The notes beneath the pieces are model-generated. The model did not search any database, was not told where the DNA came from, and saw only the letters and a list, made by a program, of their open reading frames with translations. A stretch of 64,000 nucleotides of DNA, taken from an uncultured Alphaproteobacteria bacterium. GTDB lineage: Bacteria; Pseudomonadota; Alphaproteobacteria; UBA7985. The position numbers and the translations under genes were made by a program. The stretch lies in the NCBI GenBank assembly GCA_905479265.1, contig CAJQLX010000004.1:1-64000 (forward strand), read 5' to 3'. Below, in pieces: positions 22,608 to 31,320 of the stretch (the first letter of the stretch is position 1; every line of letters starts with the position of its first letter).

Positions 22608-22727
22608 AAGAACTCGGTCGATTACCTGACAAGTCGAGACGCGCAAGGACATTTTTAGGGGTGTGCGGCGTTGCTTATTTACGGATAAGCGACCCAGGGC
22701 GGTGCAGCCGCCGCGCGCATGACGCAT

Positions 22728-22874
22728 TTAGACGTTTGTTTTCCCCCGTGAGCGACGGCATCGCTCGGAGCAGTAAACCACATCATCCCAATCACGCGCC
22801 CATTTCTTGCGCCAAGCAAAGGGTCGATCGCAGACGGGACAGGTTTTGGTTGGTAGGTCGGATTTCTTGCGCAT
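22728..22874 (-). CDS. DUF2256 zinc-ribbon protein
   Basis: 48 aa. The sequence has the DUF2256 signature: [19 protein letters not shown], then a Trp-rich stretch and VYCSERCRR, giving two CxxC/CxxxC pairs for one zinc. Family members are often encoded beside Fe-S photolyase/cryptochrome genes in proteobacteria; here the photolyase is 7 kb away. ATG 22874 gives the normal family length; a longer frame to 23042 runs through the divergent promoter and is rejected. Confidence 0.85.
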
Positions 22875-22946
22875 GCCCCCAGAACTGGCGCGCTTTGGCC
22901 ATAGTTCCAGCCCAAAGGGGTTCACGGGCCTAAAATTCACCAAAAA

Positions 22947-22990
22947 CGACGTATTTGCTATTTTGCGACGTAAATGGTACAGTGTGTCCC
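22947..22990 (+). promoter_or_regulatory. promoter with overlapping direct-repeat operator; leaderless start
   Basis: TTGCTA (22955-22960), a 17-bp spacer and TACAGT (22978-22983) form a sigma70-type promoter. Transcription would start about 7 bp later, at or next to the ATG at 22991, and no ribosome site exists. Direct repeats CGACGTATTTG (22947-22957) and CGACGTAAATG (22966-22976), period 19 bp, cover the -35 box and spacer. Confidence 0.6.
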
Positions 22991-23230
22991 ATGAGTGATA
23001 CAAGAAAGACGACCTCGCTTGGCGATCGCATCGCCACCGCACGAGAGTGCAACAACCTCACAACCGCACAGCTTTCTCGCCGCCTCGGCGTCCAGACCGG
23101 CACTGTTTCCGGCTGGCAGAGAAATTCTTCCCAGCCTCGCGCCAACCGTTTGGCCATGCTTGCTGGTGTTCTGGGCGTTAGCCCATCTTGGCTGCTCGTT
23201 GGCCGTGGAACGGGTCCACTGCGCTCCTGA
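22991..23230 (+). CDS. XRE-family transcriptional regulator
   Basis: 79 aa, essentially one lambda-repressor-like helix-turn-helix: [38 protein letters not shown], then [18 protein letters not shown]. There is no ligand domain. The promoter predicts a leaderless mRNA starting at ATG 22991, and direct repeats overlapping that promoter suggest autoregulation. It is divergent from DUF2256 and may control that gene too. An upstream in-frame start at 22955 would lie inside the promoter. Confidence 0.88.
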
Positions 23231-23321
23231 TCCTTAGCGGCGTCGTCTTCGGGATAGTCCAAAGCCGACACGTGAGCGCCTAGAACGTGCCCAAAAATTC
23301 TTTGGGTTGAGCCTATTTTTC

Positions 23322-23370
23322 AAAGCCGACTGCGCGCAGAGAAACAGCGCCGGTCGGCTTTTTCGTTTTT
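23322..23370 (+). terminator. rho-independent terminator after XRE gene
   Basis: AAAGCCGAC (23322-23330) pairs with GTCGGCTTT (23353-23361), with an inner GCGC/GCGC pairing, and is followed by a T-rich tract to 23370. It lies about 90 bp past the XRE stop. Confidence 0.8.
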
Positions 23371-23465
23371 AGCGTTCAAAAATTTCAGGGTCACAGCGTA
23401 AACGGTTTGAGCCTTTGGCGGTGTAATTTGATCAACGTCCCCTAAACCGGAGCTTGATCACCCCC

Positions 23466-28872: not shown

Positions 28873-29080
28873 GATCGTCTGGCCCGGTTATTCAAAAAAA
28901 TTCACTGACCGGAAACGTGCATCAATCAATTCCACTCTGCAATCAAGAAAGTCGAAGGTGAACCACCAAAAAATCGTGGCACTTCCTCAAACCACAGCAG
29001 AAACGCACTGCTCCACAAAAAACCCATGTCGCGACACCTTGTCGGGATTGTCCTGACCAAACGCGCCCTACCTCTTGGGC

Positions 29081-29794
29081 ATGAATGCAATCATTTTTGG
29101 GGCCAGCGGCGGCATTGGCGGGGCGCTTTGCCAAGCCGTGATCGCCAGCGGCCAATACACCACTGTTTTCGCCGTCTCTCGGACGCCTGTGACCATCCCG
29201 GGCGCGGTGCCCTTGGTCTATCCACAGTTTGACGACGAAAGCCTCGCTGACATCGCCCAAACCGCAGCGGCGCAAGGCCCGCTGACGCTTTGCCTGTCCG
29301 CGCTCGGCACGCTATCGGACGCCAGCCAAGACCTTTCGCCCGAACGCACCTTGCGCGCGCAAAGTGCGGCAGCGTTTGAGGCTGTTTTCCATATCAACAC
29401 CGTCCTTCCCGCGCTGATCGCCAAGCATATGATCCCCTTGATGCCGCGAAAGGAGCGCGCCGTGTTCGCAGCGCTGTCCGCGCGTGTGGGCTCGATCTCC
29501 GACAACCGATTGGGCGGATGGCACGCCTATCGCGCGTCGAAGGCTGCGCTGAATATGCTGATCAAGAACTACGCGATTGAACAAACACGCCGCGCGCCGG
29601 ATTTTATCGCCGTCGGACTGCATCCGGGAACGGTCGATACCGCCCTTTCTTCGCCGTTTCAGAAAGGCGTGCCCGAGGGGAAATTGTTCTCACCTGCGCA
29701 ATCAGCCGGCTATCTGCTGTCCGTTCTGGGCCAATTGACGCCTGACGACACCGGCAAAGTGTTCGACTGGCAAGGCACGGAGGTTCCAGCGTGA
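29081..29794 (+). CDS. short-chain dehydrogenase, CsgA/C-factor-like
   Basis: 237 aa SDR. The NAD(P) motif IIFGASGGIGGALC starts at residue 4, the catalytic tract is ALSARVGS with HAYRASKAALNM (Tyr-x-x-x-Lys) near residue 150, and LHPGTVDTALSSPF follows. It overlaps the photolyase gene by 4 bp (GTGA), and SDR plus Fe-S photolyase pairs occur in other alphaproteobacteria. Its ribosome site is weak; ATG 29081 is chosen over TTG 29075. Divergent from the Rieske gene across about 208 bp. Confidence 0.82.
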   Translation: MNAIIFGASGGIGGALCQAVIASGQYTTVFAVSRTPVTIPGAVPLVYPQFDDESLADIAQTAAAQGPLTLCLSALGTLSDASQDLSPERTLRAQSAAAFEAVFHINTVLPALIAKHMIPLMPRKERAVFAALSARVGSISDNRLGGWHAYRASKAALNMLIKNYAIEQTRRAPDFIAVGLHPGTVDTALSSPFQKGVPEGKLFSPAQSAGYLLSVLGQLTPDDTGKVFDWQGTEVPA

Positions 29795-31320
29795 GTGACG
29801 CGTCGCGCCTTGTCTTGGTGATGGGGGATCAGTTGTCCCTGAACCTCTCCTCGCTGCAAGCGGCTAACCCGGCACGCGACCGGGTTCTGATGGTCGAGGT
29901 GATGGAGGAAACAACGTACGTTCCCCACCACCAAAAGAAGATCGCCTTTATCCTGTCCAGCATGCGCCACTTTGCCGAACGCTTGCGGGGTGAGGGCTGG
30001 ACCGTCGATTACGTCAAGCTCGACGACCCCGGCAACACGGGCTCTTTCACCGGCGAAGTTGAACGCGCCCTTGCCACCAGCGGCGCGGATGAAGTGTTGG
30101 TCACACACCCCAGCGAATGGCGCGTTTTGGCGGCGGTCAAGGCATGGACAGAAACCCTGTCCCAAGCCATCCACATCCTGCCGGACGATCGTTTCATCTG
30201 TGACGCGGCAACCTTTGAGGCTTGGGCCGACGAGCGCAAGCAGTTGCGGATGGAGTATTTTTATCGGGACATGCGCCGGAAAACCGGCTTGTTGCTCGAC
30301 GGTGATCAACCGGTGGGCGGCAAATGGAACTATGATGCTGAGAACCGCAAACCCGCTGGTGCGGATTTGTTCATGCCGCCGCCACACCGCGTCGAGCCAG
30401 ACGCCATCACTCAAGACGTTTTAACGCTCGTGGAGGCCCGTTTTGGCCACCATTTTGGCGACCTTCACCCCTTTTGGTTTGGCACCACCGCTGAAGACGC
30501 CGAGGCTGCTGTCGATCGTTTCATCGAAGACGCCTTGCCGCTGTTTGGGGATTTTCAAGACGCGATGGTGCGGGGGGAGAAGTTTCTGTACCACTCGCTG
30601 ATCGGTCTGTACCTCAACATTGGCTTGTTGGACCCGCTGGCCGTGTGTCGCCGTGCTGAAAACGCGTACCTCAGCGGTCATGCGCCCCTGAATGCGGTGG
30701 AAGGCTTTATCCGGCAGATCATCGGTTGGCGCGAGTTTGTGCGCGGGATCTATTGGCTGAAAATGCCAGAGTACGTGGACAGCAACTTCTTCGACACCAA
30801 ACGCCCCCTGCCCGAATTCTATTGGACCGGTGAGACCGATATGGCGTGCATGCGCGCAGCAATCACGCAGACCCGCGAAGACGCCTATGCCCATCACATC
30901 CAACGCCTGATGGTGACCGGCAACTTCGCGCTGCTCGCTGGCCTTGACCCCCAAGCCGTGCACCAATGGTATTTGGCCGTGTACGCCGATGCCTTTGAAT
31001 GGGTGGAAGTGCCCAATACCATCGGCATGACCCTTTTTGCCGATGGCGGGGTTCTGGGTTCCAAGCCCTATGCGGCCAGTGGAAACTACATCAACCGCAT
31101 GTCGGATTACTGCAAGTCATGCGCCTATCAGGTGAAGCTCAAGACGGGCAAAGACGCCTGCCCCTTCAACGCTCTGTACTGGCACTTTCTGGACCGTAAC
31201 CGAGACGTGCTGGCCAAGAACCCGCGCATGGCGCAGATGTACCGCACGTGGGCGCGGATGGCCGAAGACCGGCAGAGCGAGACCTTGGCGTCTGCCGAAG
31301 CCTTCCTTGAGACGCTTTAG
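29791..31320 (+). CDS. phrB: Fe-S bacterial cryptochrome/(6-4) photolyase
   Basis: 509 aa DNA photolyase-related flavoprotein. Four cysteines at 353, 441, 444 and 457 (MACMRA, DYCKSCAY, DACPF) have the same 88-3-13 spacing as the [4Fe-4S] ligands of Agrobacterium PhrB. The N-terminus LVLVMGDQLSLNLSSL and the ...GREFVRGIYWL-like block (IIGWREFVRGIYWLKMPEY) fit this class. It would repair (6-4) photoproducts with FAD, a lumazine antenna and the cluster. The start is GTG overlapping the SDR gene; a strong terminator follows. Confidence 0.92.
   Translation: MSDASRLVLVMGDQLSLNLSSLQAANPARDRVLMVEVMEETTYVPHHQKKIAFILSSMRHFAERLRGEGWTVDYVKLDDPGNTGSFTGEVERALATSGADEVLVTHPSEWRVLAAVKAWTETLSQAIHILPDDRFICDAATFEAWADERKQLRMEYFYRDMRRKTGLLLDGDQPVGGKWNYDAENRKPAGADLFMPPPHRVEPDAITQDVLTLVEARFGHHFGDLHPFWFGTTAEDAEAAVDRFIEDALPLFGDFQDAMVRGEKFLYHSLIGLYLNIGLLDPLAVCRRAENAYLSGHAPLNAVEGFIRQIIGWREFVRGIYWLKMPEYVDSNFFDTKRPLPEFYWTGETDMACMRAAITQTREDAYAHHIQRLMVTGNFALLAGLDPQAVHQWYLAVYADAFEWVEVPNTIGMTLFADGGVLGSKPYAASGNYINRMSDYCKSCAYQVKLKTGKDACPFNALYWHFLDRNRDVLAKNPRMAQMYRTWARMAEDRQSETLASAEAFLETL

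Follow-up and report, generated by a model that had tools for sequence, protein, structure and literature searches.

A probably leaderless, self-limiting Xre regulator gene divergent to a DUF2256 gene in an uncultured alphaproteobacterium

The lambda repressor cI is a helix-turn-helix (HTH) protein translated from a leaderless message, with an operator that overlaps divergent promoters; it is a phage gene whose product carries a C-terminal oligomerisation domain and binds palindromic operators, whereas the Xre gene described here is chromosomal, encodes an HTH domain only and is preceded by direct repeats. P22 C2 is a phage repressor with palindromic operators, and its HTH domain (PDB 2r1j, 1adr) resembles the Xre protein in sequence. 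Leaderless mRNAs have been defined as those with a 5' end no more than 5 nt from the start codon, and the portion of the same study drawn on here counts 119 leaderless cases among 2,675 TSS-gene pairs in the alphaproteobacterium Zymomonas (PMC7566282). Leaderless regulator genes are known and include acuR and, as cited in the acuR paper, lambda cI and tetR (PMC3017554). In the sections of that paper used here, acuR of Rhodobacter sphaeroides resembles the Xre gene as an alphaproteobacterial leaderless regulator gene that lacks a Shine-Dalgarno (SD) sequence, has an operator at its promoter and represses itself (both predicted for the Xre gene), but it belongs to the TetR family, has an inverted-repeat operator, stands first in an operon, is relieved by acrylate and has been demonstrated experimentally (PMC3017554). 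The Caulobacter regulators RtrA and RtrB are likewise chromosomal alphaproteobacterial Xre proteins; the parts of the two reports used here give them a ChIP motif with one strong and one weak half-site, place them downstream of SpdR, acting on an adhesin inhibitor gene, and do not mention autoregulation, a term found once elsewhere in PMC9648850 (PMC9648850, PMC10688885). The closest precedents of the candidate leaderless Xre gene are acuR and lambda cI.

Layout and conservation of the locus

The Xre gene and its divergent neighbour lie in the window, the whole 64-kb stretch of DNA analysed (Table 1). The Xre product passes the curated Pfam cut-off for HTH_3 (32.1 bits vs 23) and falls below those of the DicA subfamily (NCBIfam NF007257, 47 bits vs 101) and the RstR family (NF041951, 28.6 bits vs 80); among solved structures its top sequence match is P22 C2 (E about 2e-6, query residues 7-71). 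The 48-residue neighbour passes the DUF2256 cut-off with 80 bits vs 25.

Table 1. Positions in the window of the genes and sequence elements discussed
Feature	Position	Strand	Remark
DUF2256 gene (PF10013)	22728-22874	-	48 aa; divergent to Xre gene
AATTYACCAAA block	22934-22944	+	conserved; upstream of repeats
Direct repeat copy 1, CGACGTATTTG	22947-22957	+	only CGAC core conserved
-35 element TTGCTA	22955-22960	+	TTGCT invariant in three species
TTTTGCGAC	22961-22969	+	in all three genus orthologues
Direct repeat copy 2, CGACGTAAATG	22966-22976	+	19 bp from copy 1; CGAC core conserved
-10 element TACAGT	22978-22983	+	TAAACT in G003, TATAGT in G002; 7 nt before ATG in all three
Xre/HTH_3 regulator gene	22991-23230	+	79 aa; stops shortly past HTH domain
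Inverted repeat TCGCGACA-CCT-TGTCGGGA	29029-29047	+	before SDR-photolyase operon
DPRP photolyase family gene	29791-31320		in the window

Within a family of six genomes, each a species of one genus, a search at E 1e-6 recovered the Xre gene in three: the window's own species, G003 (72% identity) and G002 (70%). Each of these three carries DUF2256 divergent to the Xre gene, and the same search found no Xre homologue in G004 (94% complete) or G005 (79% complete), both of which carry DUF2256. The pair belongs to a block of neighbouring genes, their kinds read by eye and not scanned, that is common to the window and G003 and extends to G002 as far as the G002 contig reaches. In G003, DUF2256 is separated from the following gene of the block by a 1208-aa frame (L076, 2368-5994) that by eye resembles a hybrid histidine kinase and is absent from the corresponding place in the window.

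Across the order, 7 of 11 genomes gave an Xre match at E 1e-10, and the homologues of groups f2 and f3 are longer than the window protein. In a nine-sequence alignment, from which L029, L030 and most Roseibium loci were omitted, the window and G003 proteins end soon past the HTH domain, the six proteins from outside the genus carry tails, and the G002 protein continues into a tail that by eye is unlike the others.

Promoter and start of the Xre gene

The original prediction had placed transcription at or beside the ATG, from a TTGCTA-17-TACAGT promoter and with no ribosome site. We confirmed the promoter, whose elements are separated by 17 nt and end 7 nt before the ATG at 22991, and by eye the 15 nt upstream of that ATG hold no SD-like core; nor was an SD found by eye before the orthologues of G003 and G002. 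Each element matches its consensus at 4/6 positions, and the combined 8/12 at the leaderless position is reached by 26 of 1000 dinucleotide shuffles, a set separate from that used for the repeats below. The same test gave 7/12 for G003 (89/1000 shuffles) and 8/12 for G002 (13/1000), and a stricter scan of 22650-23450 at 9/12 returned no promoter, as a canonical terminator scan of that interval returned no terminator. Taken from one sequence alone the observation would be weak; the promoter stands above chance because it is conserved across three species. The spacers measure 17, 17 and 16 nt in the window, G003 and G002, and the distance from -10 to ATG is 7 nt in each, even though the bases of that 7-nt stretch differ among them.

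The Xre gene thus has the sequence marks of a leaderless gene, a -10 element placed for a start at the ATG and no SD by eye, conserved in 3/3 species, and the comparison supports the predicted leaderless start. A GTG at 22982 and a TTG at 22955 could in principle serve as in-frame starts, which would count against it; by eye neither is retained in G003 or G002. Among the more distant Roseibium-type homologues, 8 of the 12 listed have GGGAG shortly 5' of the aligned ATG, which may not be the true start, so the leaderless form does not appear general to the wider family.

Candidate operator elements and competing explanations

The intergenic alignment of the three species keeps AATTYACCAAA, CGAC, TTGCT, TTTTGCGAC, a TA-A-T -10 and the ATG. 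In the Xre-proximal 56 bp (22935-22990) 35 of 55 ungapped columns are invariant, compared with 9 of the gene's 37 fourfold sites (Fisher p 0.0003) and 22 of 59 columns of the DUF2256-proximal DNA (p 0.008), where the boundary at 22935 was chosen after the alignment had been seen and columns were taken as independent. We suspect that the AATTYACCAAA block is UP-element-like or part of a binding site.

Eleven-bp direct repeats over the -35 and spacer had been proposed as the operator. The two copies are present, identical at 9/11 positions with a period of 19 and extendable to 14-mers matching at 11/14; however, when the 116 bp from 22875 to 22990 were shuffled 1000 times with dinucleotides preserved, 107 shuffles contained an equal 11-mer pair and 20 an equal 14-mer pair, which rules out the repeat as a statistically strong signal. 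Nor is the full 11-bp unit kept in relatives, where only CGAC is retained, with periods of 19 in the window, 20 in G003 and 19 in G002. What is conserved in all three species are the CGAC and TTTTGCGAC elements, which overlap the -35 and the spacer, and self-repression of the acuR kind through these putative sites is plausible.

With a probability of roughly one half, we favor the explanation that the Xre gene is leaderless, is transcribed from a sigma-70-like promoter, and is limited in its synthesis by its own product acting at the predicted sites CGAC ... TTGCT ... TTTTGCGAC. Transcription would start on the ATG or one or two bases from it and yield a leaderless mRNA of presumably low translation; the Xre protein would bind the conserved sequences at and near the -35 and within the spacer, block RNA polymerase and thereby limit its own synthesis. 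If DUF2256 were affected at all, this would follow incidentally from its sharing the intergenic DNA with the Xre gene, and the comparisons below do not support such an effect. The HTH_3 domain with its likeness to P22 C2, the constant 7-nt distance and lack of an SD in all three genus orthologues, the excess invariance of the Xre-proximal DNA, the recurrence of TTTTGCGAC described below and the precedent of leaderless self-repressing regulator genes such as acuR (PMC3017554, in the portion used here) all argue for this explanation. Against it stand the modest promoter scores, particularly that of G003, the failure of the 9/12 scan, a repeat that is insignificant taken alone and unconserved beyond CGAC, and the genomic motif counts.

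These counts provide little sign of a wider regulon. The original prediction had suggested searching the genome for CGACGTAWWTG pairs, for example near the photolyase operon at 29081, and the search returned just the known pair: its exact form occurs once in genome G000 (96% complete), at the Xre promoter, and the single motif occurs exactly in the 64-kb window at the two known sites only. The photolyase operon of the window has no exact or one-mismatch copy close by; the matches nearest 29081 (28764 and 29582) have two mismatches each. The pair CGAC-N10-12-TTTGCGAC gave 3 matches in G000 vs 12 for a reversed control and 11 vs 24 over the six genus genomes, exceeding the control in G005 only (3 vs 1); the genus thus shows no excess of pairs over the control, as a regulon sharing this operator pair would require.

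The element TTTTGCGAC extends further. We examined 34 regions upstream of Xre homologues, 7 from this order and 27 others, leaving out L005 as the same stretch as L003. It was exact in 6 of the 7 order-level regions, with 8 of 9 bases in the seventh, and in 0 of the 27 others, two of which had 8 of 9 bases. Its genomic frequency, 4 to 57 per genome in the order, was not above that of the reversed control in 10 of 11 genomes with both strands summed (for example 41 vs 59 in G006), and marginally above it in G007 (57 vs 56); the 64-kb window has 24 sites at one mismatch or fewer vs 23.9 expected. At the f2 homologue of G007 the match is on the opposite strand in the apparent N-terminal coding part and may be due to chance. 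Because that match falls in probable coding sequence and the f3 match was noticed by eye before counting, the recurrence is suggestive only. Upstream of the f3 homologues the DNA keeps GTCGCAAA-(A/T)-TTGGGAAAATACG-(A/C)-CGCTCCCCCCTG; read from the opposite strand this gives (A/T)TTTGCGAC, oriented towards ATACGAC, with ACGCC in place of ACGAC in one of the three.

The block GTCGCAAA-TTGGGAAAATACG-CGCTCCCCCCTG, conserved 5' of the Xre homologue in the three f3 genomes (L027-L029), spans about 35 bp, and in these homologues the first ATG follows the end of a CCTANNT by 7 to 8 nt.

A simpler possibility, which we consider the strongest competitor though the less probable, is that the conserved bases constitute a core promoter with AT-rich upstream contacts for RNA polymerase, that the repeat is coincidental and that the Xre protein acts elsewhere. 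The frequency of equal repeats among shuffles, the loss of the repeat beyond CGAC in relatives and the lack of a motif-pair excess in the genus would all follow from such a promoter. It accounts poorly for the invariance of GCGAC within the spacer, which need not be conserved, and of the CGAC upstream of the -35 in the three species, as well as for the recurrence of TTTTGCGAC upstream of f3 homologues in another layout. Alternatively, the conserved sites could belong to a different regulator that controls the Xre gene. We regard this as rather improbable: the Xre promoter DNA has by eye no match to the sites of LexA (GTTC-N7-GTTC) or CtrA (TTAA-N7-TTAA) or to GANTC, and TTTTGCGAC accompanies Xre homologues across the order. 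The conserved CGAC, TTGCT and TTTTGCGAC elements are most likely binding sites of the Xre protein itself. A far more speculative scenario, to which we give very little credence, is that the genus Xre protein lost the helical C-terminal tail present in its longer homologues while its operator shifted from inverted half-sites (GTCGCAAA...AAAATACGAC, as in f3) to direct ones spaced by about two turns of the helix. Copies of the single-domain protein would then bind side by side at the leaderless promoter and would control DUF2256 as well, the small partner of bacterial (6-4)-type photolyases.

DUF2256, the photolyase operon and a shared switch

The description of DUF2256 as a photolyase-associated small protein, offered in the original prediction, is supported by its co-occurrence with DPRP. 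Among 61 relatives each family is found in 20 genomes, 19 of them shared (p 1.3e-13), and among 299 genomes across the phylum each is found in 66, with both in 57, each alone in 9 and neither in 224 (p about 1e-41); the two samples overlap, the p values ignore relatedness, and with no more than 23 DUF2256 candidates scored in any genome the phylum search may have overlooked some carriers. In 29 of the 57 shared genomes the two matches start within 2.5 kb of each other, 24 of these on the same strand, and among 14 named control genomes two carry both families and a third, Haloferax, carries DPRP only. The portions of the literature searched for DUF2256 and COG4338 contained no link to photolyase and no mention of COG4338. 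Genes for RudS, by the part of the report consulted, sit in light-responsive operons with photolyases (PMC11417400).

The photolyase operon has a conserved element of its own. The inverted repeat TCGCGACACCTTGTCGGGA at 29029-29047 matches at 15/16 positions, as it does in G003, and at 14/16 in G002; the 16 bases TCGCGACACCTTGTCG are invariant in all three, with no alignment gap to the first ATG, and G002 has no SDR gene between DPRP and the preceding gene. In G004 and G005 the best match within 1.8 kb upstream of DPRP was 11/16, in a differing gene context. The 600 bp before the DPRP match in L068, L069, L070, L072, L073 and L075 gave best scores of 9 to 11 of 16, where the operon promoter could lie further upstream, and for L074, the window's own, the stretch begins downstream of the motif, which makes its score uninformative. 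Across the six genus genomes GCGACA-N3-TGTCG occurs 12 times vs 20 for the reversed control, with no excess. This element is an inverted CGACA/TGTCG repeat, in contrast to the Xre promoter, where the CGAC copies are direct, and the element may be the operator of another regulator.

By eye, a CCTANNT ends 7 nt before the photolyase-operon ATG in the three species (29067-29083 in the window), and this operon may be leaderless too.

Coupling of the Xre gene to DUF2256 and the photolyase, which the original prediction had proposed, is conjectural. The geometry of shared repeats stood, with the direct repeats lying 73-102 bp upstream of the DUF2256 ATG, but the DUF2256-proximal DNA has no detectable conservation excess over fourfold sites (22/59 vs 9/37, p 0.26), and by eye it offers no nameable promoter element common to the three species. 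A switch in which the Xre protein turns down its own gene together with DUF2256, and thereby photolyase function, is very doubtful: the divergent pair in 3/3 genus genomes with the Xre gene, the co-occurrence of DUF2256 with DPRP, the conserved CGACA/TGTCG halves preceding the photolyase operon in these three species and the lack of a comparable site in G004 and G005 would fit such a switch, yet adjacency is weak evidence because the pair is part of a more extensive block of shared genes, the photolyase motif differs in layout from that of the Xre promoter, and the altered DPRP context in G004 and G005 is a simpler cause of the missing motif. The distributions also separate the genes, in that three f3 genomes have an Xre homologue and neither DUF2256 nor DPRP, and G004 and G005 have DUF2256 and DPRP with no Xre homologue at E 1e-6; the DUF2256-DPRP association therefore does not make the Xre protein the regulator of DUF2256.

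Collectively, these comparisons point to an Xre gene that is leaderless, has a conserved promoter region and probably limits itself, an arrangement of an ordinary kind. If this is true, it would be a further example of a leaderless and probably self-limiting regulator gene, one that a comparison of three related genomes can reveal without RNA data. The more broadly useful outcome is that DUF2256, a small protein without an assigned function, tracks DPRP so closely that it merits testing as a possible partner of photolyase.
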